Assembly (NCBI RefSeq): GCF_013374095.1
Contig: NZ_AP022672.1
Location: 1,177,501-1,241,500, forward strand
Origin: Sphingomonas sp. HMP6
GTDB lineage: Bacteria > Pseudomonadota > Alphaproteobacteria > Sphingomonadales > Sphingomonadaceae
Direction of reading: 5' to 3'
Length of the DNA: 64,000 nucleotides
Below, piece by piece: positions 4,732 through 22,087 of the stretch (position 1 is the stretch's first letter; every line of letters begins with the position of its first letter). The notes beneath the pieces are model-generated. The model was not told the DNA's origin and ran no database searches. It saw nothing but the letters and a program-made list of their open reading frames with translations. The translations under genes and the position numbers were made by a program.

Positions 4732-7464
4732 TCACACTGCGCCGTGGCAGTGCTTGTATTTGCGCCCCGATCCACATGGGCACGGCGAGTTGCGGCTGAC
4801 CGTGCCTGACCATTCCGCCGGATCCTGCCCGATCTCGCTGCCATCGGGCTGCGGGATCGACAAGGGTGGCAAGCGTGTGGTGATCAGGCCGCTGCCGCCA
4901 TCGCGATCATAGGTGTCGTCGTCGCCGGTGAACGGGTCGAAGTGCGATGTGATGAAGTCGGGCAGACTGGGAAGCGCAGGGGCCTCCTCGATCTGGAACT
5001 GCGCGAAGGAGATCGTGCGCGTCACATCCTCGCGAATATTGGTCAGCATCCGCTCGAACAGCGAAAACGCCTCCTGCTTATATTCGTTGATCGGCGTCTT
5101 CTGCGCATAGGCGCGCAGGTGAACGACCTGGCGCAGCGCATCGAGTGTCGCAAGATGCTCCTTCCAATGATGGTCGAGGTTCTGCAGCAGGATCGACTTT
5201 TCGACCCGGATCCAGGTTTCGGGATCGAGCGAGGCGGCCTTCTCGGCCATCATCTCGTCGGCCATCTTCTGGACGCGCTCCTCGATGATCTCGGGATCGA
5301 TCGCCTCTTCCTCCAGCCACGCCTCGATTTGCGGCTCGATATTGAGCATCTCGGCGAGCCCGGCTTTCATCCCGGCAATGTCCCACTGCTCGGGATAGGT
5401 GCCCGGCGGGCACGCGCCACCGACGATCGTGTTGACCGTCTCGGCGCGCATATCCTCGACCACGTCGCCAACGGTATCGGCATCCATGATGTCGGCGCGC
5501 TGCTCGTAGATCACCTTGCGCTGATCGTTCATCACGTCATCATATTCGACGACCTGCTTGCGAATGTCGTAGTTGCGCGCCTCGACTTTTTTCTGTGCGG
5601 TCTCGATCGCCTTGGACAGCCACTTGCTGCCGATCGCCTCGCCATCGCCAATGTTCGAGCGCATCATCTTGGCAAACAGCGTGTCCGGCCCGAAAATGCG
5701 CAACAGGTCGTCGTCGAGGCTGAGGTAGAAACGCGAGAGGCCCGGATCGCCCTGGCGGCCCGAGCGACCGCGCAGCTGGTTATCGATGCGGCGGCTCTCA
5801 TGTCGCTCGGTACCCAGCACGAACAACCCGCCGGCGGCGAGCACTTCGGCCTTTTCGGCCGCGATCTGCGCCTTGATCCGGGCGACCTCGGCATCGCGCT
5901 CGGGCCCCTCGGGCATCGCCGAAAGCTCGTCTTCGACCATGAATTCGAGATTGCCGCCAAGCTGAATGTCGGTGCCGCGCCCAGCCATGTTGGTCGCGAT
6001 CGTCACCACGCTCTTGCGCCCCGCCTGCGCGACGATATGCGCCTCGCGTTCGTGCTGGCGCGCGTTGAGCACCTCATGCTTGACGCCTTCCTTGACGAGG
6101 AATTCGCTCAGCAATTCCGACTTTTCGATCGACACCGTACCGACCAGCACTGGCTGGCCGAGATCGGCGTGATGCTTGATCTTCTTGGCGATGGCAGCAA
6201 ACTTGTCGGCGGTGTCCTTGTAGAATTCGTCTTCCTCATCGACGCGCTTAACGCCGACATTGGTCGGGATCGTCACCACGTTCATCTTGTAGATGTCGTA
6301 GAATTCCGCCGCCTCGGTCGCCGCAGTACCGGTCATGCCGCTGAGCTTGGGGTACATGCGGAAATAGTTCTGGAAGGTGATGGAGGCCATCGTCTGGTTC
6401 TCGGGCTCGATCTCGACGCCCTCCTTCGCCTCGACCGCCTGGTGCAGGCCATCGGACCAGCGCCGCCCGTCCATCATGCGGCCGGTAAATTCATCGATGA
6501 TGATGACCTTGCCGTCCTTGACGATATAGTCGGTATCGGCCCGAAACATCATGTTCGCGCGCAGCGCTTGGTTCAGGTGATGCACGACCTGGGTATTTTC
6601 GAAATCGTACAGGTTCGCGCCCTCGAGCAGCCCGGCCGCCTCGAGCATACGCTCGACCTTTTCGGTGCCATCCTCGGTCAGGATGATCGACTTCTGCTTC
6701 TCGTCCTTCTCGTAATCGATCGGGCTCAACTCCTTCACGACCAGATCGACCGAGCGATACAGGTCGGACTTGTCGTCGGTCGGGCCGGAAATGATCAATG
6801 GCGTGCGGGCTTCGTCGATCAGCACCGAATCGACTTCGTCGACGATCGCCATCGCGAACGGCCGCTGCACCATCGATTCGCGATCATATTTCATATTGTC
6901 GCGCAGATAATCGAAGCCGAACTCGTTGTTCGTGCCGTAGGTAATGTCGGCATGATACGCGTCACGGCGCTGCTGGTCCGACAGGTTTGGCACGATCACG
7001 CCGACCGTCATGCCGAGGAAGGTATAGACCTGCCCCATCCACCCGGCATCGCGTGCGGCGAGATAATCGTTCACGGTGATGACGTGGACGCCCTTGCCCG
7101 GCAGCGCGTTGAGATAGACCGCCAGCGTCGCCACCAGCGTCTTGCCCTCGCCCGTGCGCATCTCGGCGATCTCGCCACGGTGAAGCACGATCCCGCCGAC
7201 CATCTGCACATCGTAATGCCGCTGGCCGAGCACGCGCTTGGCGGCCTCGCGCACCGTCGCGAACGCCTCGGGCAGCAGATCGTCGAGCGTCTCGCCCGCC
7301 TCCAGCCGCGCGCGGAACTTCATGGTCTGCGCGGCGAGATCAGCGTCCGACATGGCCTGCAGCGACGGTTCGAACCCGCCGACCTTGTCGACAATCGATC
7401 CGAGCGATTTGACGTACCGGTCGTTCGACGACCCGAAAAGCGTTTTGGCAATGCCGCCGAGCAT
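4732..7464 (-). CDS. secA: Preprotein translocase ATPase SecA
   Basis: Motor ATPase that pushes unfolded preproteins through SecYEG. It is 910 aa long, normal for the family. Walker A is at residues 105-109 ([13 protein letters not shown]), and the DEAD-like Walker B lies in [21 protein letters not shown]. The second helicase half has [10 protein letters not shown] and [13 protein letters not shown]. The C-terminus carries the zinc/SecB-binding motif C-x-C-x8-C-H (C895, C897, C906, H907). AGGAAA precedes the start at suitable distance. Confidence 0.98.
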
Positions 7465-7550
7465 AGAGATTTCCTGAAATGAAGGGAGGTGGCCCGCGCG
7501 GCGCGCGGTGCCGAAAAATATGGTGAGGCAGCGCGATCAGCGCCGCAGGA

Positions 7551-7814
7551 TCAAACCCGCAGGCGACCCAGATACAACGGCACGCGCGTTGCCGCGGGTG
7601 CAGGCAGATTCGATACCAGCGCGAACACCCGCTGCACACCAAAGGCTCCGAGCAGATGGACATGCGCGCGCGCCATCGGTGCGGCGGTTGCGACACGCTG
7701 CCGAATCGCGGTCGCAAGTGCCGACTGCTGCACGACCGCGGCAAGCGGACGCGCACCGACGCTTACGCCGGTCAGCGTCGAAAAAAGCGCGGAAAGAACG
7801 AGTAACCAGTTCAT
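7551..7814 (-). CDS. Small hypothetical membrane-anchored or secreted protein
   Basis: An 87-aa protein with a hydrophobic N-terminus (NWLLVLSALFSTLTGVSVGARP), then an Ala/Val-rich tail with several basic residues. The frame is open further upstream to 8042, but that extension crosses the island boundary and has no protein-like character, so the internal ATG is preferred. It lies 86 bp upstream of secA on the same strand. No family is recognised by motif; small proteins of this composition are common beside secA in sphingomonads (from memory). Function unknown. Confidence 0.6.
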   Translation of the reverse strand: MNWLLVLSALFSTLTGVSVGARPLAAVVQQSALATAIRQRVATAAPMARAHVHLLGAFGVQRVFALVSNLPAPAATRVPLYLGRLRV

Positions 7815-7924
7815 CGTGTGCCGCGCATGTAAGCGTTCGCCAGCGTAACGTCCATGACGAACTGTGGTTGCGGCCACGCGGGAGCCAGGCCCCGACGGTA
7901 CGAAGACCGGAAATTTTGGAAAGA

Positions 7925-7947
7925 TGGTGGAGCCGAGGGGGATCGAA
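7925..7947 (-). repeat. Island attachment site, distal copy (tRNA-Ala 3' remnant)
   Basis: Twenty-three bases starting TGGTGGAGCCGAGG and ending GATCGAA match 22012-22034 exactly. On the minus strand this is the T-loop, the 3' T-stem strand, the acceptor strand and CCA of tRNA-Ala, with no tRNA body attached. The match stops abruptly on both sides, as expected of a recombined core. Confidence 0.88.
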
Positions 7948-8055
7948 AACCCGGTCCATAACCATTGGAAAACAAAGACTTTTTCTTTTCGCCTGTTACC
8001 GTTGCTATAGGTGGATGTAACACGTGCTCCGCAATGAATCAAATCGGATGGTAGA

Positions 8056-9210
8056 CTATGCTGAGAAGCTAGACATGGCGTCGGGTGGCTCTTCTGTCAG
8101 ATCAATGTGGGAGAGAAGTTCGTTGATAGTATCGATGCGATACTGAATCATACGAACCATCATCGGAGACCGAGCGTCAAAGTATTTCCAATGAAATAGA
8201 CCGGCTTTATCGATGAACTCAGTCTCGCAGATCATGTAGTCTCTGAACTTATCGCGAGCCGCCTTCCAACCCTCAGCGCTATTAGGGTCGGTCCAGTCCC
8301 AAATCCTAATTGCCCTGTCGGCAACCTCATCTAAGCGGTTAAGTTCATTTTGAAGCCTCGTCACATTTCCTACGGGATATCCTTCTTTGGTCATAAGGTT
8401 GGGAAACAAACTTGGAGCATGGGCCGTAAATGCGGCCTCCACGCCCCTCATAACTGAGGCCACGATTAGACCGTTCGCTAATGCTAACTTTGGGTCCCAT
8501 GAGTCTCTAGCATTAGGGTGGCCCATAGACTCAAGACCGATCTCGTGAACGAGCTGGTTCCTGAATGTGAATATGCTATCTAACACAGCGATCTGATCGC
8601 CTTGCACCCAGCATACCGTTGACCCTTCGGCTGTTCCGGTGAGCCATTCTTTGAGAGAAAATGGAAAGCCCAGCTCTTTAAATACTCTGCCAATTACCGA
8701 AAAGTATGACTCGGTGGTACTAACCTTTACGCTCGCGCCGACTAACTGAATAACCGAAGCCTTTTTCTCCACGGCCTGGACAATGACTTTGTCGCTTATT
8801 GTCCCCTTAATGTCATCGATACGGATGCTAGAAGGGTTGTAGGACAGCATATCCACTAAGCGAGATTTTGCATGCCATTCCAGACACGTTACGAATCCCA
8901 CCGCGTAGTATGAGAATATCTCAGATCCGTACCACGGAGACCAACGCCGTTCTTCAGGGGTACTATCTTCGACGGTTTTACGAAGAGATATCAGATCATC
9001 TAGGAGCACATCTAACCGTTGCTCGGCCATGTAAGCGTTCAGGTAGTCGAGGGACGGATCACTATACCTGAGGGCAAAACTGATGAGCGGATGAGGCTGA
9101 CTTGCGTTCAATTTCGACGTCCAAACTTGAGGTATCCGGCTCCCCGACATACACCAATCTGCCAACGACCAAAAAATGATATTGGTTTTTGAGAGGGCAA
9201 GTCCGACCAA
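8056..9210 (-). CDS. HEPN-like domain protein of unknown function
   Basis: A 384-aa protein encoded by DNA visibly richer in A+T than everything around it. It has no signal peptide or clear membrane segment. Residues 217-222 read RNQLVH within FTFRNQLVHEIG, an R-x4-H motif with Asn after Arg, the catalytic signature of HEPN ribonucleases. The surrounding sequence is helical and aromatic-rich. A second helical part (FVTCLEWHAKSRLVDML, ~107-122) could belong to the same fold. The start is uncertain: TTG at 9210 gives the longest form, ATG at 9150 or 9030 are alternatives, and none has a strong ribosome site. HEPN proteins often act in abortive-infection or toxin-antitoxin roles; that role here is inference. 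The gene lies 108 bp inside the distal att site, with no antitoxin-like partner next to it. Confidence 0.6.
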   Translation of the reverse strand: MVGLALSKTNIIFWSLADWCMSGSRIPQVWTSKLNASQPHPLISFALRYSDPSLDYLNAYMAEQRLDVLLDDLISLRKTVEDSTPEERRWSPWYGSEIFSYYAVGFVTCLEWHAKSRLVDMLSYNPSSIRIDDIKGTISDKVIVQAVEKKASVIQLVGASVKVSTTESYFSVIGRVFKELGFPFSLKEWLTGTAEGSTVCWVQGDQIAVLDSIFTFRNQLVHEIGLESMGHPNARDSWDPKLALANGLIVASVMRGVEAAFTAHAPSLFPNLMTKEGYPVGNVTRLQNELNRLDEVADRAIRIWDWTDPNSAEGWKAARDKFRDYMICETEFIDKAGLFHWKYFDARSPMMVRMIQYRIDTINELLSHIDLTEEPPDAMSSFSA

Positions 9211-9237
9211 AATAGCGGGCGTTCTCCCCCGTAGCCC

Positions 9238-9420
9238 CTAGCCCCACAACTTTAAGACCGCTGTCGGCAGGCCAACCCAAACGAGTGCACCGCTCGCAGC
9301 GGCCCCGGCGACGATCCGGGCCACGGGGCTGCGCACGACTGCAAGACCCGCAGCAAGCCTCGGATAGCCCGCGTCGATCAACGCCAACGTCTGCAACGTC
9401 TCAGCTTCCCATCGTGTCAT
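9238..9420 (-). CDS. Small hypothetical membrane protein
   Basis: About 60 aa, starting at an ATG preceded by GGAGG at about 8 nt. That ribosome site favours this start over an ATG further upstream at 9477. The N-terminus (TRWEAETLQTLALIDAGYPR) looks amphipathic. The C-terminal half (IVAGAAASGALVWVGLPTAVL) could form one membrane segment. It reads in the same direction as the HEPN-like gene, ending 27 bp before that gene's longest start, so the two could be cotranscribed. No family recognised. Confidence 0.5.
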   Translation of the reverse strand: MTRWEAETLQTLALIDAGYPRLAAGLAVVRSPVARIVAGAAASGALVWVGLPTAVLKLWG

Positions 9421-9583
9421 CGAGATAACCTCCGCTCGCGCATCTAATAGCATCATGGCATTAGCCCGAGAGAACAAAACAAGACCACGATCAATTCAGC
9501 CCCTTGTCCACAACCCCCTAACGAACGTTTGACAATCTTGGACATGCGCCTAAATGGGCTGCTCACCACACGGAGCAAGCCCA

Positions 9584-10339
9584 GTGCGCACCATCAATTA
9601 TTACCGTGTCTCCACTGCCAAGCAGGGGCGGAGCGGCTTGGGTGAAGCAGCACAGCGTGCCGCAATCGAGGCGTTTTGTGCAGAACGCGGATGCGAACAG
9701 GTTGCCGAGTACGTCGAGGTTGAAAGCGGAAAGCGGGATGACCGACCGGAGCTTATCAAGGCGTTGCAGCATGCGAAGGTCACCGGGGCGACACTCATCA
9801 TCGCCAAGCTCGACCGCCTTAGCCGCAACCTCGCGTTCCTCGCCACTCTACAGGACGCTGGCACCAAGTTCATCGCGGCGGACATGCCGGAGGCCAATGA
9901 GGTCACCATTCACATCATGGCGGTAATCGCACAGGCGGAGCGGAAAGCAATTAGCCGCCGCACGAAGGAAGCACTTGCCGCTGCCAAAGCCCGAGGCACC
10001 AAGTTGGGCAATCCCGATGGTGCAGCAGCCTTTGGGGGAAGCCGTAAGATGCGGGCAGAACGTCCACAGCAGGCTAACCGGGCTGCACAGATCGCGGCAC
10101 GCTCGGGCGGCAACGTCGCTGCGGTCGAAGCGATCAAGGCGAAGTCAGCAGCATTCGCAGCCGATGTTGCTCCTATCGTCGCTGCGATACGTGCCGATGG
10201 GCATAGTAGCTTGAGAGCCATTGCCGCCGAACTAAACGCTCGCGGGATCATGACCGCACGCGGGGGCAAATGGGGTCCTCAGTCCGTGAGCGATATAATT
10301 GGCGCTGGCCAGATCGCGGGGCACAACCACGCCGCCTGA
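9584..10339 (+). CDS. Serine recombinase (resolvase/invertase family)
   Basis: Small serine recombinase, about 251 aa. The nucleophile is the Ser in YYRVSTAKQ near the N-terminus; GLGEAAQRAAIEAFC, IIAKLDRLSRNLAFL, and the long helix around EAKRALAEAK-type sequence (ISRRTKEALAAAKARGTKLG) follow in family order. The C-terminus (LRAIAAELNARGIMTARGG.WGPQSVSDII) is the helix-turn-helix recombinase tail. GTG at 9584 is chosen because GGAG lies 8 nt upstream; an ATG at 9554 would add 10 residues. It may serve inversion or resolution of the island. No inverted target sites were recognised next to it. Confidence 0.88.
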   Translation: MRTINYYRVSTAKQGRSGLGEAAQRAAIEAFCAERGCEQVAEYVEVESGKRDDRPELIKALQHAKVTGATLIIAKLDRLSRNLAFLATLQDAGTKFIAADMPEANEVTIHIMAVIAQAERKAISRRTKEALAAAKARGTKLGNPDGAAAFGGSRKMRAERPQQANRAAQIAARSGGNVAAVEAIKAKSAAFAADVAPIVAAIRADGHSSLRAIAAELNARGIMTARGGKWGPQSVSDIIGAGQIAGHNHAA

Positions 10340-10919
10340 GGCCGCAACTGCGCTGCCTGAAAGGCCGAAGACGCGATGATGCCCGGATCGCCACCAATGC
10401 GCTCACGGGGCTTGTGCCGGGGCTGGCGGGCATGCGGACTCCACGAGAGTGCCCCGGGGATGCCGCGCGGGGCCGCAGGGACCACCGGGCACGTTCTGAT
10501 ACCGTCTCCCACAGGGAAACAGGCGTAGTCCGTTCAGGATCGCATCAGGGCTGCGCGATAAAACCGAACCATGCCCGATCTAACTGCGACACTAACGGGG
10601 TTGAGCAAGTAGAATGCAGTTTCGCCAACCCTTCTGGCAAGGCCGGTTACATTAAACGCATATCTATTTGTGGACCGAAGGCGGGATGAGCCCATCTATA
10701 CCTTCGATCGGGATACCCAAGTAGAATATGAACTAGGAAACCATAATAGGAAGCCTAGGTAGCGAACTCGTGACACCGACCCACTATAATCAGCCGGACA
10801 CCCAAATAAGCACAAGGCGGTGCCGATAAATCACTCCGTCTGAGAGCCATCTCTATCCATCTTTGGGACTCAATATAACCGTCCGTCAATCGTTCAACCA
10901 ATGTCAACCCGGAGAAATA
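10340..10919. other. Gene-poor stretch inside the island
   Basis: About 580 bp after the serine recombinase with no convincing gene in any frame; the open frames crossing it have no protein-like composition. The second half is visibly A+T richer. It ends in GGAGA, the ribosome site of the next gene, so the last part is probably promoter and leader DNA. No tRNA, hairpin terminator or repeat was recognised. Confidence 0.5.
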
Positions 10920-11177
10920 ATGCCGACTCTTACCGTGACGACCGATCTTATCGAAAGCCAGCAGGCCGCAACTTACTTCACCAATGCCGACAGACGCGTG
11001 ATGATCGGCCTCAGGGCTACACTCGAAATGCTGCGGCTTCCTGTCCCTGAATATGCTCGCCGGAAGGCAACTGGGGTTACCCCGGCGAAAGCTGCCCTAG
11101 AGGCGTATAACCGGGACAATCCCCCGACACCCTCAACCGTGCTGGCAGATCGCAAACCCAATTCAGCCACAGCCTGA
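10920..11177 (+). CDS. Hypothetical protein, first gene of the island operon
   Basis: An 85-aa protein starting at an ATG with GGAGA 4-8 nt upstream; an upstream ATG at 10863 lacks such a site. It is soluble and mostly helical in composition (SQQAATYFTNADRRVMIGLRAT), with a Pro/Ser-rich tail. No family recognised. It heads a run of same-strand genes: the next begins ~47 bp later, and the following pairs overlap by 4 bases, pointing to one transcript. Confidence 0.6.
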   Translation: MPTLTVTTDLIESQQAATYFTNADRRVMIGLRATLEMLRLPVPEYARRKATGVTPAKAALEAYNRDNPPTPSTVLADRKPNSATA

Positions 11178-11224
11178 CAGCCCTACCGGCTTAACCGCAT
11201 TCCCATCTGAAAAGGACTGACGAG

Positions 11225-11752
11225 ATAACTACCTTACGCGATACCCCAAACGACCTACGCCGTAATGCTGCGGAAATTGAGCAAGCCCGGTCTGATATTA
11301 CCCAGCTAGAGCGCCTCACTAATGCCCGTGCCCGCCTGATCGAACTCCTTGCTGAGCATGACCGGCTGACACGGAAACATCAATCCGAGGTCGCCGCACG
11401 GGCCAAACTCGATGCCAATGCTCGGTTTACCGGCCTGTCCGGCATCGTCGTCGTTGATAAAACACCAGATGAGCAAGCGCTTCGGTCTAGCTATGAGATC
11501 ACCTATATCGCTCTCACCTATGACATGTTTTCGAACAAGTCCTTGCCTGCATCGAACACCATTGTCGGCTTTGACAGCCTGCCGTCGAACGTGCTGGCGT
11601 ACCTTATCGAGCGTCATCCGGACCAGATTCCCGACAAGATCATGCGGCTTGCGCCTAACCCTGCCGATGCCTTCAATCGGTTCTTTGTGGGCTTAGCTCG
11701 TGGTCACCTGACCGCATCCAATCATGACGTTTCCCCGGTGCGTGGAGCATGA
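11225..11752 (+). CDS. Hypothetical coiled-coil protein with apparent ATA start
   Basis: The frame is open for 175 codons, but its first ATG is at 11525, in mid-protein. AAAGGA at 11211-11216 is a good ribosome site, and the codon 8 nt beyond it is ATA, after which the sequence reads TTLRDTPNDLRRNAAEIEQA. The likely reading is an ATA start, or an ATG lost by a single base change. Residues ~10-65 are a charged heptad-like helix (RSDITQLERLTNARARLIELL), probably coiled coil, followed by a globular part. The stop overlaps the next gene (ATGA). Family unknown. Confidence 0.5.
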   Translation: MTTLRDTPNDLRRNAAEIEQARSDITQLERLTNARARLIELLAEHDRLTRKHQSEVAARAKLDANARFTGLSGIVVVDKTPDEQALRSSYEITYIALTYDMFSNKSLPASNTIVGFDSLPSNVLAYLIERHPDQIPDKIMRLAPNPADAFNRFFVGLARGHLTASNHDVSPVRGA

Positions 11753-12319
11753 GCAACAGGACGTTGGCGGGGCTACGCCGAACGGCCCCGGTAGAAGACC
11801 GGTATTCCCCGGTTTTCTCTCAGCGGGCTAATCAGATGCAGCGTCCCAGCCACACCCGCTACATCACCGTGAAACTACGCCCTCAGTCGCTCGACGAGTT
11901 ACGGACTGTGTGCGGGCAATACGGGGATGCGGCGGTACGTGAAGCATCTTGGGGTGCCGTGTCTGGGTTCCTGATGGGCATGTCCCCGGAAGTGCAACTT
12001 TCGAACAGCGTGGCGGTCGCCGTTGGGGCAATCAATTTGTGTCGCAATGCTGATCGCGCTCGGGGTTACCCCAGTCTGTCTGGCAAGCCACAGCCAAACG
12101 AACTGCCTAGCCTTTCGCCGGAATTGCAGGCGGAGGCAGTGCGGGTAGCCAACGAAACGGTCGAGGATTGGAAGCAGGTGGGAAGCCCTCACCTGCTGAT
12201 TCCGACGAAGTCGCCCCCCGTTTCCGAGATGATCGCGCCCCCTGATTCCGAGATGATGTCGCCCCCCGGAAGCGGGGCCTTGTCGGCAATGATCGTTGTT
12301 GTTTCGTTCGGTGCTTACG

Positions 12320-13060
12320 TCAAGCGATCTGGCTGGTTTTCGCACGCCGCATGCTATCGCCATCGAGGTCGAGCCGATGGGCGTTGTGGACGAGGCGATC
12401 GAGGATCGCGTCGGCATAGGTCGGATCCGCGATCACCTGATGCCAACTGGCGATGGGCAGCTGGCTGGTAACGATCGTCGAGCGCCGCCCGTAGCGTTCT
12501 TCGAGGATCTCGAGCAGATCGTGGCGCGCGAGTGCGTCGAGCGGCTCCAGGCCCCAGTCGTCGAGGATGAGTAGCTGCACGCCGCCGAGCTTTCGCAGCA
12601 AGCGTTCGTGACGACCATCCCCGCGGGCAAGCGCGAGGCTGGTGAACAGCTTGGGGACGCGCTGATAGAGCACCGAGCGATCGTCGCGGCAGGCCTTGTG
12701 ACCAAGCGCGCAGGCAAGCCAGCTCTTACCGACCCCGGTGGGTCCGGTGATGACCAGATTGTCGTGGGCGGCGATCCAGTCGCCGACCACGAGCTTCACG
12801 ACCAGCGCGCGGTCGAGCCCGCGGGGTTTGCGATAATCGATGTCCTCGGGCGAGGCCTGATGGCGCAGCTTGGCGAACCGCAGCCTGGCGGCAAGCTTGC
12901 GATCGTGACGGACGCCCCATTCGCGATCGAGGAGGAGTGCCAGCCATTCGGGATGGGTAAGCCGATCCGCTTCGGCATTGGTGGCAAGTTCGTCGAACGC
13001 CCTGGCCATACCGGCCAGGCCCATTTCGTTCAGCCGATCAAGCGTCGGATGTGCGAGCAT
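12320..13060 (-). CDS. istB: IS21-family helper ATPase IstB
   Basis: A 246-aa AAA+ ATPase, the transposition helper of IS21 elements. Walker A is GPTGVGKSW, Walker B LLILDDWGLEPL. The C-terminus has TIVTSQLPIASWHQVI and LDRLVHNAHRLDLDGDSMR. ATG at 13060 is preceded by AAAGGAACACGACG; longer upstream frames overlap istA and are not protein-like. It lies directly downstream of istA. Confidence 0.92.
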   Translation of the reverse strand: MLAHPTLDRLNEMGLAGMARAFDELATNAEADRLTHPEWLALLLDREWGVRHDRKLAARLRFAKLRHQASPEDIDYRKPRGLDRALVVKLVVGDWIAAHDNLVITGPTGVGKSWLACALGHKACRDDRSVLYQRVPKLFTSLALARGDGRHERLLRKLGGVQLLILDDWGLEPLDALARHDLLEILEERYGRRSTIVTSQLPIASWHQVIADPTYADAILDRLVHNAHRLDLDGDSMRRAKTSQIA

Positions 13061-13073
13061 CGTCGTGTTCCTT

Positions 13074-14624
13074 TCAGTGATAATAGCGTGAGCCCCGGAT
13101 GTTGGGATGATCGACCGGCGGGCTCTCAACCGGAGGCGATGACGGGATCTGGTCGAGGTTCTTGTCGAGGATCGATCTGACCGAGCCGTAGGTGAGCGCA
13201 CCGATATCGAGCGCGCGCGAACAAGCCGCTTCGATCCGCTTGGCACCGAAGCTGCGCGTCATGCGCATGATGCCCATACAGGCCCGGAAGCCCTGCTCGG
13301 GATGGCGCCGTTCAACGAGGATCTTCTCGCACAGCAATGCCGTACATGGCCCGATCGCGGTCGCATCGCGCGCGATCCGCTCTACTGTCCAGTCGGCAAA
13401 GCGCCGGTGCGACGAGGGCATATGCTCCGGGATCGTGGTATGGCGGCCATTGCCCGAGCCGCGCATGTGCGCGGCGATCCGCTCGCCCTTGTGGAACAGC
13501 TCGATGGTCGCCGCGGTGATCCGCGCTTCGATCGGCTCGCGTGCGAAGCGGTATGGGACGGAGTAATAATGCCGCTCGATCTCGACGTGATAATCGAGTC
13601 CTGCGCGCCTGCGCCGCCATTCGGCGTAGACATAGGGCTCGGCTGGCAGCGGCTTCAGCGCGGGCCGGTCGATCTCTTCGAACAACTGACGACGCGTCTG
13701 CCCAACCCGGCGCAGCACGCGCCGATCGTTCAACTCGGCAAGCAACCCGGCGATCGCGGCGTTCAGTTCGGCCAGGCTGTAGAAGATCCGACGCCGAAGG
13801 CGTCCGAACAGCCAGCGCTCGACGATCAGCACGGCAGCTTCGACCTTTGCCTTATCGCGCGGGCGGCGCGGCCGCGTCGGCAGCACCGTGCTGTAGTAAT
13901 GCGCCGCCATCTCGGCATAGCTGCGGTTGACCTGCGGATCGTAAAGACAAGCCTTGATCACCGCGACCTTCGCATTGTCGGGCACGAACAGCGCCGGCGC
14001 ACCGCCGAACATTGCGAGCGCGCGCGTGTGCGCCGCCAGCCAGTCGGGCAGCGTCTCGGTCCAGCTTCCCTCGGCATAGGTCAGGCTGGACGCCCCCAGC
14101 ACCGCCACGAAGATATGCGCGTCACGCACTTCGCCCGTCAGTCGGTCGATCACCACCGCGATCTTGTCGCCCGCATAATCGACGAACAGCTTGTCACCCG
14201 GCGCATGGTTCTGACGCATCGTAACCGGCAGCTTCATCGCCCAGCCGCGATACAGGTCGCAGAATCGGCTGTAGCGATAGCCGGTCGGATGCTCGGCGAT
14301 ATACTCGTCCCACAACACCTGCAGCGTGACATGCTTGCGCTTCAGCTCGCGATGAACTTGCGCCCAGTCGGGTTCGGGACAGCGGCGGTGGCCGGTCTTC
14401 TTGCCCGCATCGCGGTAGAGTGATGCCTCCAGCGCAGCATCGCCGAGCGTCTCGTCCAGCGGCCATCTCAGTCCCGCATCCGCGACACGCTTCAAGGTCG
14501 CCCGCACCGTCGAGGGCACCGCACCCACGCGCAGCGATATCGCCTTGTATCCCAGCTCCTGTTCGAACCGGTATCTCATCATCTCGCGGACACGTCGCAT
14601 ACTCACCCTTCCCGCCGGCATCAT
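13074..14624 (-). CDS. istA: IS21-family transposase IstA
   Basis: A 516-aa DDE transposase. The N-terminal helix-turn-helix lies in GYKAISLRVGAVPSTVRATL. The catalytic core has D in LFVDYAGDK, D in FVPDNAKVAV and E in KAKVEAAVLIVERW, in family order. The C-terminal part has the beta-barrel segment RAGLDYHVEIERHYYSVPY. An alternative start (MRRVREMMRYRF) lies 8 codons downstream of the first ATG. It is apparently intact. Confidence 0.93.
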   Translation of the reverse strand: MMPAGRVSMRRVREMMRYRFEQELGYKAISLRVGAVPSTVRATLKRVADAGLRWPLDETLGDAALEASLYRDAGKKTGHRRCPEPDWAQVHRELKRKHVTLQVLWDEYIAEHPTGYRYSRFCDLYRGWAMKLPVTMRQNHAPGDKLFVDYAGDKIAVVIDRLTGEVRDAHIFVAVLGASSLTYAEGSWTETLPDWLAAHTRALAMFGGAPALFVPDNAKVAVIKACLYDPQVNRSYAEMAAHYYSTVLPTRPRRPRDKAKVEAAVLIVERWLFGRLRRRIFYSLAELNAAIAGLLAELNDRRVLRRVGQTRRQLFEEIDRPALKPLPAEPYVYAEWRRRRAGLDYHVEIERHYYSVPYRFAREPIEARITAATIELFHKGERIAAHMRGSGNGRHTTIPEHMPSSHRRFADWTVERIARDATAIGPCTALLCEKILVERRHPEQGFRACMGIMRMTRSFGAKRIEAACSRALDIGALTYGSVRSILDKNLDQIPSSPPVESPPVDHPNIRGSRYYH

Positions 14625-14695
14625 TCACTCCTTCGGACAGACCCAAAGGAGCGACGATAACCCTGCCGGCGATCCCGGTCCGACCCACCCCGCAA

Positions 14696-14793
14696 GGGGG
14701 CGACATCATCTCGGAATCCGGGGGCGACTATTTCTCGGAATCCGGGGGCGGCATTATTTCGGAATGAGGGGGCGGCTTGCCTCGGAATCAGCA
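14696..14793. repeat. Four tandem ~24-bp repeats at the istA-proximal end of the first IS21 element
   Basis: Units of the form GGGGGCG[A/G]C..n..TCGGAAT begin at 14696, 14720, 14744 and 14768, spaced exactly 24 bp; the last unit runs to the IS terminus. The opposite end has three inverted counterparts (TTCCGA at 12200, 12222 and 12246). These are probably transposase binding sites. Confidence 0.85.
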
Positions 14794-14879
14794 CCTCACC
14801 TGTTGCGCGCTATCGCCAGCACCCACGAAACTATCGCCGTATATCGGCGGCGGAATCCCAACCCCGAAGGAACCTCGAT

Positions 14880-15545
14880 TTGACGACAATGACGACGAAG
14901 GAGCGCGCTCAGGTGAACGCCGCCCTGTGTATCATCCACGACAACGGACTTAATGCCAGCGCCATCACACAGGCAGCTACCGTCAATATCGCGAGGGGCC
15001 TAGCGCCCGGTGCCGCCTACGGCTTGGCGCTAAACGCCTTCGCAGGGCAACACGCCGATCTAGCGCCGATGCTGTCAAAGGTTACCCGGTTGATCGGCGC
15101 AAGCTCCCCGGAATCCATCGTTACCTATGACCGCGCCCTGACCGAGTACATCGCCACCGGCAATGATGCCGCCATGAACGCCTTAGCCCCGATGATCGCA
15201 GCGGACAGCATGGCGCTCGCTATCCGCGCCGGGGAAATGAAGGCAGGCGACACGGGAGAGGCAGCACTGGGGGCCGTCCCTAGCCCTGCCATGCAGCAAG
15301 CGTTTTCTGATGTCAGCACTACCCCTGAGGAACCTTCCCCGACCGACTCCAATGGGTATCAGCTATCGGCGGTTGCCGGTGCAGGCATGGTTGCAGCAAA
15401 GGCTAATCTTGCGCCTGCCCACTACAGCGGATTTGCCCCCGACGTGTCCGCATTCAACGGCCTTACACTTGAGGCAATGCGGGAAGCGGCACGGGTATCA
15501 GCCGCCGGGCATTCATCCGTGACCCCGGACAGCGGTAGCATCTAG
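14880..15545 (+). CDS. Hypothetical protein, last gene of the island operon
   Basis: A 221-aa, Ala-rich soluble protein. TTG at 14880 is the likely start: AAGGAA lies 7 nt upstream and the codon overlaps the stop of the interrupted upstream gene. ATG at 14889 is an alternative with worse spacing. The first ~130 residues look helical (NAALCIIHDNGLNASAIT, AAYGLALNAFAG). A Pro/Thr/Ser-rich linker (~148-160) and an Ala-rich tail follow. No family recognised. The upstream IS may now separate it from the operon promoter. Confidence 0.6.
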   Translation: MTTMTTKERAQVNAALCIIHDNGLNASAITQAATVNIARGLAPGAAYGLALNAFAGQHADLAPMLSKVTRLIGASSPESIVTYDRALTEYIATGNDAAMNALAPMIAADSMALAIRAGEMKAGDTGEAALGAVPSPAMQQAFSDVSTTPEEPSPTDSNGYQLSAVAGAGMVAAKANLAPAHYSGFAPDVSAFNGLTLEAMREAARVSAAGHSSVTPDSGSI

Positions 15546-15765
15546 GGAAAAGCGGACAGGCAGGAAACGCCCAAAGTCGGTCGTTCCCACGTTGCTCAGG
15601 TTCCCCTTGGGAGATATCGTGCTCGAGTGTTCGATGATCCAGACGAAGAGGCGGATCTGGATGCGGCGGTGACAAAGCAGGCCATCGGAACGCCGGCGGT
15701 GTGCTGAGCGTGGCGGAGTAAAATCCGGCCGTTGGTAAGGTTGCTTCTTTTGGGAGCGGCCGGGG

Positions 15766-17253
15766 ATGTTTGCCGTGGAGAGCTATGCCGCCGTTCGGCG
15801 CTTCGTGTTCGTTGAGGGTCACAGCCGTCGGGAGGCAGCGCGGGTGTTCGGGCTGAACCGGGAGACGGTGGCCAAGATGTGCCGGTTCTCACTGCCGCCG
15901 GGATATACGCGCAAGGAGCCTGCAGCGAAGCCGAAGCTGGGGCCGCTGCTGCCGGTGATCGATGCGATCCTGGAAGCGGACCAGACAGCGCCGGTGAAGC
16001 AGCGGCATACGGCCAAGCGGATCTTCGAACGACTGCGCGACGAGCATGGCTTTGCCGGCGGATATACCGTGGTGAAGGACCATGTTCGGCTCTGCCGGGC
16101 ACGAGGGCGCGAGACGTTCGTGCCGCTGTCACACCCGCCGGGTCATGCGCAGGTGGATTTTGGCGAGGCGGTCGGCGTGATCGGCGGCGTGCGTCAGAAG
16201 ATCCACTTTATGTGCATGGACCTGCCGCAGTCGGATGCCTGCTTTGTGAAGGCCTATCCGCGCGAGACGACGGAGGCGTTCCTCGACGGGCATGTGTCGG
16301 CGTTCGCGTTCTTCGGCGGCGTGCCGCTGTCGATCCTGTACGACAACACGACGATCGCGGTGGCGAAGATCCTGGGCGACGGGAAGCGTGAACGCACGCG
16401 GGCCTTCACCGAGCTGTGCAGCCACTATCTGTTCCGCGATCGCTTCGCACGGCCGGCCAAGGGCAACGACAAGGGCAAGGTCGAAGGGCTGGTCAAGTTC
16501 TCGCGCGCCAACTTCATGGTGCCGGTCCCGCACGCTGCCAGCTTCGACGATCTGAACGCCATGTTGGAAGAGCGCTGCCGCGCTCGACAGCGCGATCGTG
16601 CCGGCCGCCATGCCGAGACGATCAGCGAGCGGCTGGTGGCCGATCGCACAGCGCTGCGGGCGCTGCCAGCGGTGCCGTTGGAGCCCTGCGAGAAGCGCAG
16701 CGGGCGGGTCTCGTCGATGGCGCTCGTGCGCTATCGGACCAACGACTACTCGGTGCCGACCGCCTACGGCTTCCAGGACGTGGTGGTGAAGGGCTTCGTC
16801 GCCGAGGTCGTGATCCTGTGCGGCGGCAAGGAGATCGCTCGCCACCAGCGGTGCTATGGCGAAGGCGTGTTCGTCGCCGACCCGCTCCACTATCTGGCGC
16901 TGATCGAAACCAAGCCCGGCGCGCTCGACCAAGCCGCGGCGTTGCAGGGCTGGGCGTTGCCGGACGTGTTCCAGCACCTGCGACACCTGCTCGAAGCGCG
17001 GATGGGCAACCGGGGCAAGCGTGAGTTTATCCAGGTGCTGCGCCTGCTGGAGGCGCTGCCGCTCGACATCGTCACGGGTGCCGTAACTCACGCGATCCAG
17101 ATCGGCGCGGTCGGGTTCGATGCGATCAAGCTGATCGCGCTGGCGCGCATCGAGCAGCGACCTGCCAGGCTCGACCTGGCGGCGTATCCGCACCTGCCGC
17201 GAACGGCGGTGAAGACGACCTCGGCCGCCGATTATGCGGTGCTGGCGGCATGA
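15766..17253 (+). CDS. istA: IS21-family transposase IstA (second element)
   Basis: A 495-aa DDE transposase. The N-terminal helix-turn-helix is HSRREAARVFGLNRETVAKM. The core has D in GHAQVDFGEAVG, D in SILYDNTTIAV and E in KGNDKGKVEGLVKF. The C-terminal barrel segment is RTNDYSVPTAYGFQDV. It overlaps istB by 4 bases (ATGA). Apparently intact, so this copy may be active. Confidence 0.94.
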   Translation: MFAVESYAAVRRFVFVEGHSRREAARVFGLNRETVAKMCRFSLPPGYTRKEPAAKPKLGPLLPVIDAILEADQTAPVKQRHTAKRIFERLRDEHGFAGGYTVVKDHVRLCRARGRETFVPLSHPPGHAQVDFGEAVGVIGGVRQKIHFMCMDLPQSDACFVKAYPRETTEAFLDGHVSAFAFFGGVPLSILYDNTTIAVAKILGDGKRERTRAFTELCSHYLFRDRFARPAKGNDKGKVEGLVKFSRANFMVPVPHAASFDDLNAMLEERCRARQRDRAGRHAETISERLVADRTALRALPAVPLEPCEKRSGRVSSMALVRYRTNDYSVPTAYGFQDVVVKGFVAEVVILCGGKEIARHQRCYGEGVFVADPLHYLALIETKPGALDQAAALQGWALPDVFQHLRHLLEARMGNRGKREFIQVLRLLEALPLDIVTGAVTHAIQIGAVGFDAIKLIALARIEQRPARLDLAAYPHLPRTAVKTTSAADYAVLAA

Positions 17254-18110
17254 GCGGCGCACCCGATACGATGCCGGTCGGCACGATGAGCGGCACGCCG
17301 CAGGTGCTGCTGGCCCATCACCTCAAGCAGTTGAAGCTGCCCACCGTGCTGCGCGAGTATGACAAGGTGGCCCGCGAGTGCGCGCGCGATGGCACCGACC
17401 ACCCGCGCTATCTGTTGCGGCTTATCGAGCTCGAGTTGATCGATCGCGAACGGCGCACGATCGAGCGGCGCATCCGCGCGGCACGGTTCCCGGCGGTGAA
17501 GAGCTTCGACACGTTCGAGTTTACCGCGATCCCGAGCCTCAACAAGATGCTCGTCCTGGAGCTTGCCCGCTGTGAGTATGTCCTGCGGCGAGAGAACATC
17601 ATCGCGCTGGGCAACAGCGGCACGGGCAAGACGCATGTCGCGCTCGCCCTCGGTCTGGCCGCCTGCCAGAAGGGCTTTACCGTGACGTTCACGACCGCCG
17701 CCGCGCTGGTCAGCCAGCTGCTGGAAGCGCGCGACGAACGGCGCCTGCTGAAGATGCAGCGCGACCTTGCAGCGGTGAAGCTGCTGATCATCGACGAGCT
17801 TGGCTATGTGCCGCTGTCGCCCACGGGCGCCGAGCTGCTGTTCGAGGTGTTCTCCCAAAGGTACGAGCGTGGCTCCACGATCGTCACCTCCAACCTGCCG
17901 TTCGAGGACTGGACCCAGGTGCTCGGCAGCGAGCGGCTCACCGGCGCGCTGCTCGACCGGCTCACTCACCACGTCAGCATCCTGACGATGAACGGCGACA
18001 GCTACCGGCTGAAGCAGTCCGCCGGCCGTCGACGCTCGGCCGCAAGGGCAGAGCAAAACCAGGGCACCGAGATCATCGACCCCGAAACCGGCGAGATCAC
18101 CGACACCTGA
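17250..18110 (+). CDS. istB: IS21-family helper ATPase IstB (second element)
   Basis: A 286-aa AAA+ ATPase. Walker A GNSGTGKTHVALALG, Walker B LLIIDELGYVPLS, sensor stretch GSTIVTSNLPFEDWTQVLG, and the LTHHVSILTMNGDSYRLK tail are all in family order. The first start overlaps the istA stop. ATGs 7 and 12 codons in are possible alternatives. Confidence 0.94.
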   Translation: MSGAPDTMPVGTMSGTPQVLLAHHLKQLKLPTVLREYDKVARECARDGTDHPRYLLRLIELELIDRERRTIERRIRAARFPAVKSFDTFEFTAIPSLNKMLVLELARCEYVLRRENIIALGNSGTGKTHVALALGLAACQKGFTVTFTTAAALVSQLLEARDERRLLKMQRDLAAVKLLIIDELGYVPLSPTGAELLFEVFSQRYERGSTIVTSNLPFEDWTQVLGSERLTGALLDRLTHHVSILTMNGDSYRLKQSAGRRRSAARAEQNQGTEIIDPETGEITDT

Positions 18111-18122
18111 TCGACGACGACA

Positions 18123-18164
18123 ACGATATGAAGAGGGCCCCGATCGGGGCCCTCTTCATATCGT
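18123..18164. repeat. Perfect 42-bp palindrome inside the second IS21 element
   Basis: Each 21-nt arm runs ACGATATGAAGAGGGCCCCG plus A, followed directly by its exact complement with no loop base. It begins 12 bp after the istB stop and lies before the right IS end. No T-run follows on either side, so it may be a hairpin terminator, a protector against read-through, or a protein-binding dyad. Confidence 0.85.
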
Positions 18165-18180
18165 CAGGCCCGCATCAACA

Positions 18181-18642
18181 ATGGCCTGCTTTTACTCCGC
18201 CCCGCTGGCCTGGAATCCGACCGGCGTTGACACGGATCGCCGGTGGTGCGCCAAGCAGCGTGAGCAGGTCATTGCCTACCTGTCCGAGGAAGGCTTCCGC
18301 GCGCCAGCCGTGGGGGATTGGCCCGCGTGGCACGTCACCCCTGTTGTGTCCGTCTGGGCTGTTGAGAGCATTGAGCATCCCGGAGCCGTTGGCTGGTGGG
18401 CTGTTTCCGGCGACTTTCCAACCGATTACATAATCTGTTCGGGAGATCGGAACCCGCGCCAAGCGCTTCGCGACATCGGCGACCGCTGGGGACAAGCCGC
18501 CGCGCGTTGGCTTGACGAGAAGCCTGCGGAAGGCTTCCAGCTACGAAACGCTGCGCACGAGCATGAACTGGCACCATTGCTTGCAACCCGTGCGCAACTG
18601 TTCCTCGACTTCGCAGCCGACGACCGCAATTGGGAGCAATAG
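18181..18642 (+). pseudogene. DUF4826-family protein gene with IS-derived 5' end
   Basis: The body (WCAKQREQVIAYLSEEGF, VGDWPAWHVTPVVSVWAVES, GWWAVSGDFPTDYI) matches the DUF4826 family. The ATG and about the first 17 codons lie in the terminal repeat of the IS21 element. The native 5' end is probably at 15627 (GTG): VFDDPDEEADLDAAV... there joins in frame to DRRWCAKQ after IS removal. The current 153-aa product keeps the whole conserved domain and could still work if transcribed. Its role is unknown; as an island gene it could be cargo. Confidence 0.6.
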
Positions 18643-19229
18643 CCGCCCGTCGGCTTGCCACCACTTTGAGACATACAGGCGACGAGCCGCTAGACGCCTA
18701 TGTTGAGCCCCGGCACCCTGTACATTGCCATACCCGCGACCAATCGATGCAGCGGATACCCATTTCCGTACTCATCCGCAGTGTCGCCGGGGCTGTGCCC
18801 CATGATCTGACGTTGCACACCTTCGATGATGCCAGCACTACGGGCGTAGTGTTTGAAGGTATGGCGGAAGGAATGGAAAACCATGCGCTTATCGGTGATG
18901 CCGCAGGTGGTTCGCATATATGGGCCAAACCACTCACCCCATTTGGCGGACAAGCGCCCGTAGACGTTGGCTTTGAGCATCGGGAATAGGCGAGCGGTAT
19001 TGGCGGCAATCGCTGCCTCTACGAAAGCGATGAAGCCCAATCGCACTAGTTCCGGGTGAAGGGGCACAACGCGCTCACTGTCAGCGTTCTTCAATCGGGT
19101 GTCGGTTTTGGCGTCGTCCTTCCGATCCTCGGTAACGCGAATGAACCAGCCGCGCTGATCGCCCCCATCCGCATCCGGGTAATCCATCTGAGCGACATCA
19201 CCGGGGCGTAGCTGGCCTAGTTCCTCTAG

Positions 19230-20866
19230 CCTGATCTATTCACCGGCAGCGTTTCTCAGCCGATGGGTCAGCGCAGGCGTCGTGTAGCCGCAGGCAGGGC
19301 GCATGGGTCCCAAGCGCCTGTCTCATCGCGGGTTCACAGTTTGGGGCGGAGTTGATGGGCGGGGTTCGTTTGGCGGCCACTGCCGCATCGATCATGGTCC
19401 CGTGGTGCGCAAGTTGAGCGCGATGGATCGGAACAGCGCGGCATCGGGACAGGCGCTTGCGAAGGCGATGCGGATGCGGCTGGTGGTTTCGACGACGCGC
19501 GCGGCGACCTTGAGCAGCCGCAGGCGGATGGTCGCGAACTCGGCGGTGCGGAGCGTGGCGGTTGCGGGCATAGCGTGCCGCACGGCCCACATCAGCCAGT
19601 AGGCGGCGGTGTGAAGGATGAGCCGCATCTGATTGGCGTTGGCCGAGCAGCAGGAGGTTCGGTCGCTCTTCAGCTGCGTTTTATGCAGCTTGATCAAGTT
19701 TTCCGCCTGGCCGCGGGCGCAGTAAAGCGTGTCATAGATCCGTTCAGCGCTGCCCTCGGCAAGCGAGGTGACAACGAGGCGGATGTCGAGGCCGAGGCTG
19801 CTCGCCTCGATGCGAGCAACGACGCGACGTTCGGTATTCCCCCAGGTTTTCGCAGCGTAGCGCGTCTCTGCGTAACGCCTTAGTTCGACCAGTCCCTGCA
19901 ATGCCCGGTCGGTCGCGCAGGCATCGCCTTCCCGAACGATGACGGGATCGGCGTGGAGCGTGCGGTTGCCGGGCAGCCCGAAGATGTAGTCGATTCCGTT
20001 CGCCTCGCACCAGGCCATCGGCTCTGGCCGACCGTAATGACCATCGCCGCGCAGCGTGATCCGGGTATCGGGCCAGTGGCGACGGATACGTCGCACGAGC
20101 CGGCGAACATGGCCGGCGACTTCCTTGCCCGACGGCGTTTTGCCGGTGCGCAGCAGCATCGCAACCGGCCGCCCGGTAGCGGTGTCGTAGACATGGATCG
20201 GCAGGAAGCAGCGCTCGCCGTAGTGGCCGTTCCAGAAAGAGAGCTGCTGCGCGCCGTGTACGACGTCGACGGTATCATCGATGTCGAGCGTCACCGCCGC
20301 AGGTGGCACGGGGTAGCTCGCGCAATAAAGGTCGACCAGCGTACCGGTCAGACGGATCAACTCGCGCGTAGTCGGCGCGTTTTCCCACCGGCTCATCGTC
20401 GGCTGGCTGGCCAGCCCGAACGGATCACCCGGCAGTTTGCCGAGCGCCAGCTTGAACCCTGGATCATGCCGCAGGGCGTCGAGATCATTGGCGTCTTCAT
20501 ACCCACACGAGATCGCGAGCATGCGGGCGCGCAAGATGTCGGCGACCCGGTGGATCACCCGACCCTGATCGCGCGGATCAGCGATGCAGGCGGCGAGCCG
20601 ATCCGCGATCCCCAACCGCCGCTCGGCCTGTGCGAGCAGTAGCACGCCGCCGTCCGACGTCAGCCGACCGCCGTCGAACGCGGCGGTGATTTTTCGACCA
20701 CGAATGGCTGGGAAGGTGAAGGAGAACCCACTATCGTCGGCCATGGCGGTCGTGGCACTTTCTGTCTGGAGCAGAGGGATGGCGTAAGCACCCTTTCTCT
20801 ACTCCAAACCAAAGACTTAGACCACGATCGCCACCACCGATTATCGCTCCCGATGAATAATCCGGG
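19230..20866 (-). mobile_element. IS1380-family insertion sequence
   Basis: Length 1637 bp with imperfect terminal inverted repeats (left CCTGATCTATTCACCGGCAG, right complement CCCGGATTATTCATCGGGAG; 16 of 22 bases match). It is flanked by a 4-bp direct repeat CTAG (19226-19229 and 20867-20870). It carries one transposase on the minus strand and splits the island integrase. Confidence 0.93.
19392..20744 (-). CDS. IS1380-family transposase
   Basis: A 450-aa DDE transposase. It opens with the family pattern FDGGRLTSDGGVLLLAQAER. Catalytic residues are expected at D in VTLDIDDTVD, D in TLRGDGHYGRPE and E in CARGQAENLIKLHK. SQPTMSRWEN and SFWNGHYGERCFLPIHVYD are further family blocks. Full length for the family, and apparently intact. 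Confidence 0.95.
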   Translation of the reverse strand: MADDSGFSFTFPAIRGRKITAAFDGGRLTSDGGVLLLAQAERRLGIADRLAACIADPRDQGRVIHRVADILRARMLAISCGYEDANDLDALRHDPGFKLALGKLPGDPFGLASQPTMSRWENAPTTRELIRLTGTLVDLYCASYPVPPAAVTLDIDDTVDVVHGAQQLSFWNGHYGERCFLPIHVYDTATGRPVAMLLRTGKTPSGKEVAGHVRRLVRRIRRHWPDTRITLRGDGHYGRPEPMAWCEANGIDYIFGLPGNRTLHADPVIVREGDACATDRALQGLVELRRYAETRYAAKTWGNTERRVVARIEASSLGLDIRLVVTSLAEGSAERIYDTLYCARGQAENLIKLHKTQLKSDRTSCCSANANQMRLILHTAAYWLMWAVRHAMPATATLRTAEFATIRLRLLKVAARVVETTSRIRIAFASACPDAALFRSIALNLRTTGP

Positions 20867-22011
20867 CTAGGCGTGCCCCGGTAAATAGCGCGAGTAGCGG
20901 CAACCAGTATGCAGCTTCTCCCTTACCGCCAGCAGGCCGGATGCCCTTGGTATGCACCGGGCCTGAAAATATCTGCCTGAGCGCGGGGAGATCGAACGGC
21001 AAACGTTGGTTGCGTGCCCGGTCCGTGTCCTTGATCGTGATGCCATCCGCCACATTCGCTGAGGTATGGTCGTTGTTGAACGCCCATTGCAGCAGCGTCC
21101 GCAGCCGAGAGAGCTTCATATTGATGTTCGCAGGAGATTGCCCCTCAGCGACCAGCTTGTTCTTGAAGCTCAACACCTGCTTGCGGGTGATTCGATCAAC
21201 AGGGATTTGCCCTTCCCGTTCATAGAACCAACGGGCTACCGCCCTATGGGTATCGATGCCTTTCTGCACCGGCTTTCGCTCTGCGGCCCAAAGGTCAACG
21301 ACGGTGGTATCGAGCATCGTCCCGCCGCCGGTAGCGGCAGCGCCTTCAATGGGAGCCGCATCTGTGTGTTCATTGGTTTGCACTGGGGTAGAGGCAACAA
21401 GTGCGCCCGGAAGGGCTTTCGCGGTTCGAAGCTTTTCCTTCAAGCGGTCCCTATCAAAGTTTACCCCGTCGAGAATATACCGGAAGGCGCGCAAGCCTCT
21501 GGGCATTTCAGCAGTGGACCCCCGCAGCCTGCCTTCTAGAAACGCGATCAAGCGAGCGACATCCTCACGCCGATGATCTTTTTCGGCAATCGCCCGCGAC
21601 TCAACGAGCGCGCTCTCTAGGCCAGCTTCCCACGTCGCGGCTGCCATCGCCTCTGCGCGGGGCGAAAGGGCCTGAGGGACCGCCTGAGGGGTTTGCTGGG
21701 CAGCTTGAGCCTGCTCCCTGGCCGCATCGATCTGAGCGTCTGTCGCGAGGGTGTGGGACGGCACAAGCCGTTTCGCCCTGTCGCGGTCTTTGGTGTGGAG
21801 GGAAAACTTCCACTCGGTGCGCGCCGCCCCGGAGGCTGTTCGGATGAACGGTCGCACTCCATCGGGCACAGCGCGACGGAAATAATAGGTCGAGCCTACC
21901 TTATCGAGATAGTTGCACATGGCCCTTGGCTCCTGTTCCAGATGTAACAGACGCCCGTAAAAAGCCTATGTTTTCCAAGTATCTAGCCAGTTTTCAGTGG
22001 CTTATACAGAT

Positions 22012-22034
22012 TGGTGGAGCCGAGGGGGATCGAA
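22012..22034 (-). repeat. Island attachment site, tRNA-proximal copy
   Basis: The T-loop to CCA end of tRNA-Ala, identical over 23 bases to 7925-7947. The base outside the repeat on the island side differs between the two copies, which fixes the limit of the match. Confidence 0.88.
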
Positions 22035-22087
22035 CCCCTGACCTTTCGCATGCCATGCGAACGCTCTCCCAGCTGAGCTACGGCCCC
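22012..22087 (-). tRNA. tRNA-Ala (GGC), island integration target
   Basis: On the minus strand: acceptor GGGGCCG/CGGCTCC, D-arm GCTC..GAGC, anticodon loop around CATGGCATG (anticodon GGC), T-loop TTCGATC, discriminator A and encoded CCA; 76 nt. Its last 23 nt are duplicated at the far end of the island, so this complete copy includes island-donated sequence. Confidence 0.97.

Follow-up and report, generated by a model that had tools for sequence, protein, structure and literature searches.

We analysed a 64,000-nucleotide stretch of the Sphingomonas sp. HMP6 genome (GCF_013374095.1, contig NZ_AP022672.1, positions 1,177,501 to 1,241,500; hereafter the window), in which a 14,087-bp island borders a tRNA-Ala(GGC) gene. 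Our comparisons lead us to favour the reading that this island is probably a compact integrative element (~7.3 kb) that has become immobile, and that its family would be phage satellites, or elements resembling them, with T7-like phages (Sphingomonas phage Scott is an example) as helpers. We infer both the satellite nature of the family and the role of T7-like phages as its helpers. Below, G and L numbers denote individual genomes and loci.

Insertion of the island at tRNA-Ala(GGC)

Identical 23-mers, TGGTGGAGCCGAGGGGGATCGAA, lie at 7925-7947 and 22012-22034, and the identity stops at those bases on either side. These are the only two occurrences in the 3.64-Mb genome when up to two mismatches are allowed, and the number of exact occurrences expected by chance is ~1e-7. 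ARAGORN detected one complete tRNA-Ala(GGC) gene in the window, at 22012-22087 on the minus strand, and an Rfam scan found no second tRNA between 6000 and 24000, confirming the claim of an earlier sequence-only reading that the last 23 nt of this tRNA recur at 7925-7947 without a tRNA body. That reading also placed an integrase gene 92 bp from the tRNA. The integrase does adjoin the tRNA (its start, at 21920, is 91 bp from the tRNA end), but the gene is not whole, being split by an IS1380-family insertion sequence (IS). An intact integrase is thus missing from this island, whereas the 21 other integrases among the 22 elements compared within the genus each form a single long frame. As IS1380 interrupts the integrase, this copy of the element is probably immobile.

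A related element supplied the comparison needed to interpret these repeats. In G024, an 11,588-bp element with related genes lies between the same 23-bp repeats at tRNA-Ala(GGC), and G018 contains the base-exact empty site for it, with the flank running into tRNA-Ala without a gap and with 89.8% identity to the 8,163-bp left flank of G024. The same 23-bp repeat and related genes are also present in G199, and the att-adjacent sequences at both ends of the island resemble those of relatives (arms set side by side, unscored). These comparisons uphold the proposed tyrosine-integrase insertion. The sequence shows that the island entered tRNA-Ala(GGC) at its 3' end, with a 23-bp repeat as the trace, and that it encodes a DUF6538-type integrase. 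The predicted empty site of the island itself, with 7924 joined directly to 22012, was found neither among 30 tRNA-Ala flanks nor in 294 other genomes of the genus; the base-exact empty site is that of the G024/G018 pair, and the flank of the island is rearranged. Of the 30 flanks, a set that includes G024, five have one backbone in common, which begins ~0.1 to 13 kb away; this suggests that this tRNA-Ala site often takes insertions. At L121 (G025:C171), two tRNA-Ala(GGC) 3' ends stand in tandem, 152 bp apart.

Three IS elements account for nearly half of the 14,087 bp (the ends of the second IS21 being approximate), as would be expected if the island were a mere composite of IS elements and the 23-bp repeat incidental. 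This explanation is contradicted by G024 and G199, which share the repeat and have genes related to those of the island, and by the exact empty site, and we consider it highly improbable. Without its three IS elements, the element would measure ~7.3 kb (14,087 - 2,607 - 1,641 - ~2,500 bp).

A family of elements in Sphingomonas and related genera

To find further members, we searched 295 genomes of the genus, the source genome included, with a profile of the core gene F02 built from the island and G024 sequences. The profile identified 24 loci in 23 genomes, and a same-family integrase adjoins a tRNA gene at 21 of these (the island and 20 others). Two of the remaining three, L166 and L167, are cut by contig ends (in the L167 genome the integrase lies on a separate contig, as locus L179), and L180 is a weak match without other core genes. 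Across 22 elements, a count that includes L179 with the integrase as its sole core gene, the integrase (F00) is present in 22, F02 in 21, F01, F03 and F04 in 20 each, and the resolvase F06 in 18. Their targets are tRNA-Ala(GGC) in 12 cases, Leu(CAG) in 7, Ala(CGC) in 2 and Thr(TGT) in 1. The integrase tree groups largely, though not wholly, by target (no support values shown). Exact repeats of 17-24 bp (search minimum 12 bp) bound 14 of the 21 tRNA-anchored loci; five of the seven others end at contig ends, and L161 and L170 do not.

In wider sampling, F02 was detected in 10 of 397 genomes of the same taxonomic family (7 of 96 genera), taken as Sphingomonadaceae from named records, and in 10 of 396 sampled genomes of the same order, one of them a weak match outside the taxonomic family; the two samples overlap in genomes. 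We examined 11 further loci. A Sphingorhabdus record supplied one of these, and nine genomes from other genera supplied the remaining ten. They retain the same gene order with losses and lie beside Tyr, Leu, Thr, Ser, Ala and Val tRNAs, except for L220, whose contig carries no tRNA; in L229 the core is in reversed orientation. Seven of ten further loci have exact repeats of 14-32 bp (search minimum 14 bp, with one of just 14 bp). By their sequences, the loci form one family across Sphingomonas and related genera with a mostly fixed order, namely a left cargo slot, a serine resolvase, F04-F03-F01-F02, a convergent integrase and the tRNA. The order F06-F04-F03-F01-F02-integrase-tRNA is kept in the island, with F01 truncated and F03 without a usual start codon (no ATG, GTG or TTG ahead of its conserved part).

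In the 7-kb elements, the gap between the resolvase and F04 (0.7-1.0 kb; for example L174:7510-8400, L176:11730-12543, L168:11751-12435 and others) is conserved in part, and some elements have long inverted repeats there; it is a candidate origin, packaging site or RNA. An Rfam scan of six relatives returned no RNA families other than tRNAs. One record labelled Bacillus sp. 2B10 (L195) carries one such Sphingomonas element, and its label is probably wrong or the record contaminated.

Size classes and T7-like ejection genes

The bounded elements fall into two size classes. The small class comprises 15 elements of 6,825-7,897 bp (mean 7,302, standard deviation 246), and the large class six elements of 10,715-14,764 bp. 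All six large elements, and none of the 15 small ones, carry one gene for a T7-like inner-core (ejection) protein. We scanned 10 + 10 open reading frames (ORFs) of five elements against PHROGs and compared elements with Sphingomonas phage Scott (Autographiviridae, NC_048029, 43,077 bp). The first kind of inner-core protein, F30, matches phrog_3883 in G024 (1.5e-100), with Scott gp26 as its best match (33.6%). Homologues in L158, L160, L161, L170, L220 and L223 bring the F30-bearing elements to seven, and the position of the gene varies among them. The second kind occurs in L228 and L229 and matches Scott gp25; the 1294-aa protein of L228 matches phrog_342 (6.6e-214) and has gp25 as its best match (43.2%). 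We take the two kinds to be the gp15 and gp16 types of T7 naming. L158 also contains a gp20-like gene, whose product resembles a major tail family (2.2e-6) and an Ig-domain structural family (0.001) as well. F30 was seen neither in the island nor in its nearest relative, S. psychrolutea, where the contig is cut; the N-terminal piece of the island integrase groups with F30-carrying members.

We then used 16 Scott proteins, capsid and terminase included, as queries against the element loci. Proteins other than gp20, gp25 and gp26 gave no matches, with no capsid, portal or terminase hit among them, so the loci lack the complete virion gene set, as expected of a phage satellite, and the capsid, portal and terminase genes that would mark a prophage. 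These data bear on the possibility that the elements descend from temperate T7-like phages, as prophages that decayed but retained an integrase and ejection genes. Internal virion proteins related to those of Scott would fit such an origin, as would L223, in which the resolvase, F03 and integrase matches each come in two pieces. Against it stand the similar order and size across many species and several genera, the restriction of matches to three of 16 Scott proteins, the absence of F01-F03 from phage records, and a ratio of nonsynonymous to synonymous substitution rates (dN/dS) of 0.036 in the only close F30 pair (G024 and G199; the nine other pairs have dS >1.1 and are little informative). 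We therefore regard decayed prophages as improbable.

Weighing a phage helper

Several results weigh against a satellite reading. A search of 50,697 phage records gave no acceptable match for F01, F02 or F03 (as in L174; F01 gave one hit at E=1; F04 was not searched), F02 had none in IMG/VR, and one whole 7.3-kb member resembled none of the phage records at the DNA level. The inner-core gene is missing from this window as well as from 15 of 15 small bounded members. At the cargo slot, 12 of 19 ORFs (that of the island excluded) had no Pfam match at 0.01, and 6 of 10 had no PADLOC match. A motif, CCCACTCTACGACCTG, recurs in phage Scott, and a promoter role for it would be a guess. Three patterns of this motif, chosen after the fact, gave 4, 8 and 8 matches in the 22 elements, of which 1, 4 and 4 lie inside one F01 coding stretch. 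When compared with 100 Markov shuffles (an earlier run had used 20 plain shuffles), one of the three exceeded chance outside F01 (4 matches; mean 0.57, maximum 2), and the other two counts were reached by 55 and 5 of 100 shuffles. The four non-F01 matches of the 12-base motif fall in L160, L223, L228 and L229, all large elements with an inner-core gene, a weak observation made after the fact.

The lack of packaging evidence from phage records, IMG/VR and DNA similarity, together with small members free of inner-core genes, would also be compatible with an ordinary tRNA-borne integrative element (a genomic island or integrative mobilisable element) that has no phage helper and carries virion genes as chance cargo. 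The inner-core protein, like F02, had no match in IMG/VR, and F02 had none among plasmids. However, domain scans of the ORFs examined turned up neither a relaxase nor any other domain for mobilisation, T7-like inner-core genes of two kinds occur at different positions, and the size class is narrow, all of which make this explanation unlikely in our judgement.

The satellite reading that we prefer draws on the empty and occupied pair G018/G024, the similar arms, the shared core genes, the tRNA sites with exact repeats, the narrow small size class, the inner-core genes whose best matches are in phage Scott (with the dN/dS of 0.036 in the close F30 pair), and the cargo of some members. Under this reading, the integrase would excise the element during phage infection, a helper phage would package it, and the element would re-integrate at the same tRNA in the recipient. 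Multimers would be broken down to single units by the resolvase. In members that have one, the inner-core protein would become part of the helper virion and modify DNA ejection, and the cargo slot could repay the host with phage defence. The window copy would be past this mobile stage, with its integrase and F01 interrupted and F03 lacking the usual start codon. A more specific proposal, which we put forward tentatively and hold to be rather doubtful, is that larger members, with their own inner-core ejection protein of gp15 or gp16 type, refit the particles of the helper for DNA injection and not for capsid size or packaging, and that a 43-kb head may carry ~7.3-kb members as concatemers of six units, which the serine recombinase would resolve after entry. 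That six times 7.3 kb comes close to 43.1 kb is no more than arithmetic, and elements of the large class do not conform to it.

Phage satellites are known for taking over capsid size, packaging or replication. A compact tRNA-borne family that acquired a T7-like ejection protein more than once, and little else of the virion, would suggest that parasitism or defence can act at DNA injection as well. The family lends itself to direct tests through its narrow size class, defined gene set, exact empty and occupied sites, and named host isolates (e.g. Sphingomonas sp. Leaf34), and its cargo slot is a marked place in which to look for new phage-defence genes.

Features, cargo and flanks of the island

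The coordinates of the island features are collected in Table 1.

Table 1. Features of the island and its borders, in window coordinates
Feature	Position	Strand	Evidence and remarks
Left chromosomal flank, rearrangement junction <=~105 bp from att	7820..7924	.	MAFFT of secA upstream regions; secA-argJ adjacency
Distal attachment (att) copy, last 23 nt of tRNA-Ala	7925..7947	-	exact repeat
Element left arm, similar in other members	7948..8022	.	blastn of 7924-8022 vs G024, 75%; arms printed side by side
Cargo gene, HEPN-type protein, 384 aa, low-GC DNA	8056..9210	-	RNQLVH = R-x4-H
F06, small serine recombinase/resolvase	9554..10339	+	PF00239 1.3e-27; family in 18/22 elements
F04, core gene of unknown function	10863..11177	+	60% over 65 aa to G024 gene; in 20/22 elements
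F03, core gene of unknown function, open frame	11276..11752	+	similarity to G024 element; in 20/22 elements
F01, core gene truncated by IS21 (5' part present)	11749..12193	+	similarity to G024 element; in 20/22 elements
First IS21-family element (12194-14793) with 7-bp duplications CCTCACC	12187..14800	.	istB 12320-13246 (-), istA 13074-14624 (-)
F02, signature core gene of unknown function	14880..15545	+	88% to S. psychrolutea, 49% to G024; in 21/22 elements
Second IS21-family element, ends approximate	15661..18206	+	NCBIfam NF033546, NF038214; arms like terminal inverted repeats; istA 15766-17253, istB 17250-18110
DUF4826 gene, accessory	18181..18642	+	PF16108 3.2e-19
Integrase C-terminal piece	18690..19229	-	70% to G024 integrase residues 348-519; 91% DNA identity to S. 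psychrolutea up to 19229
IS1380-family element (19230-20866) splitting integrase	19226..20870	-	NF033539 1.1e-123; 4-bp duplications CTAG; transposase 19392-20744
Integrase N-terminal piece (DUF6538 + SAM-like)	20867..21920	-	PF20172 1.6e-12; 50% to G024 integrase, residues 3-352
Proximal att copy inside tRNA-Ala	22012..22034	-	exact repeat
Complete tRNA-Ala(GGC), insertion target	22012..22087	-	ARAGORN, Rfam

No convincing target duplication was found at the ends of the second IS21 element (15661-18206). Just past its istB, at 18123-18164, is a perfect palindrome with 21-bp arms that resembles a terminator.

The left cargo slot is variable, and in some members its genes are of defence type. 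It holds OLD/GajA-like (G199), TIR effector (L175), AbiJ-like (L227), DUF2806 (G024), acyltransferase (L174) and DUF2971 (L169) genes, and in the island a HEPN-type gene, which had no match in Pfam, NCBIfam or PADLOC. Residues R217, L220, H222 and E223 of its product are invariant in 20 aligned sequences (the query and 19 of 91 homologues), and one homologue is named RiboL-PSP-HEPN by its source. We take R-x4-6-H to be the conserved HEPN motif, which this protein would satisfy through R217 and H222. The ORF is counted from the first possible start, and its homologues begin ~33 residues later.

The left, secA-side flank of the island is a rearrangement junction. The genes secA and argJ are adjacent (~1-6 kb) in seven of seven relatives examined closely and ~0.49 Mb apart in the source genome (argJ side at G000:C1:691600-692810), with the left end of the island at the break. 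Sequence of the secA side is recognisable up to ~7820, some 105 bp short of att, in a MAFFT alignment of secA upstream regions. Positions 1-7924 of the window resemble none of the 30 tRNA-Ala flanks (6.3-19.9 kb) at 1e-10. We also searched the 295 genomes with a 376-bp joined-flank query, scoring two candidates per genome and reporting the best E for each, and found no full-flank join to tRNA-Ala in the 294 others (next best E 1e-36). The longest partial joins beside tRNA-Ala, all weak, cover 55 bp of flank in G295 (83% over the whole match), 32 bp in G067 and 19 bp in G147; 7870-7924 may be old tRNA flank. The 10 kb beyond the partial joins showed only short, weak similarity, with no secA and no core gene. 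A single simple inversion finds no support as the cause of the secA junction, as the DNA that adjoins argJ in the source genome lies ~100-160 kb from tRNA-Ala in G031 and G033.

Elsewhere in the window, a low-GC spot at 48485-50322 holds a gene for a response regulator with a receiver domain and another that resembles sensor kinases.

Comparison with known systems

Tycheposons and VEIMEs are small integrative elements with tRNA sites that have been proposed as phage satellites, and the PICI, cfPICI, P4-like and PLE satellites bear integrases, often with defence cargo. The hosts of the former differ from sphingomonads, and their likeness to the Sphingomonas family is one of general description. 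Unlike the latter, the Sphingomonas elements had no primase, capsid or terminase genes among the ORFs scanned, for which no dedicated models were used. All of these systems, the VEIMEs as marine elements, are named in PMC11389934.

The likeness to phage Scott lies in its gp26 and gp25, related to F30 and to the L228 protein, respectively. It differs as a complete phage, with no integrase among 49 of 51 features listed, whereas each element carries only one of the gp25- and gp26-like genes.

We found no description of the element family among the matches listed in open-licence PMC literature. The phage-inducible chromosomal minimalist islands (PICMI) of Vibrionaceae are, according to PMC10803314, 6.1 kb in size with their own integrase and 17-bp direct repeats, have few genes and none for capsid remodelling, protect the host from competing phages, occupy a site next to fis, and encode AlpA and a primase. 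The Sphingomonas family, known from sequence alone, resembles what is described there in its small size, few genes, own integrase, apparent lack of capsid-remodelling genes and short direct repeats. Packaging as a concatemer by a virulent phage is a further trait of PICMI. The Sphingomonas family differs in its use of tRNA sites, in having a serine resolvase and four further core genes, and in the T7-like ejection protein that some members encode; tRNA sites in place of fis, and no primase domain among the ORFs scanned, set it apart from the PICMI definition of a fis site and an integrase, AlpA and primase core. Because PICMI, the closest working model, differs in site and core genes, we describe the family as satellite-like and file it under no named satellite family.

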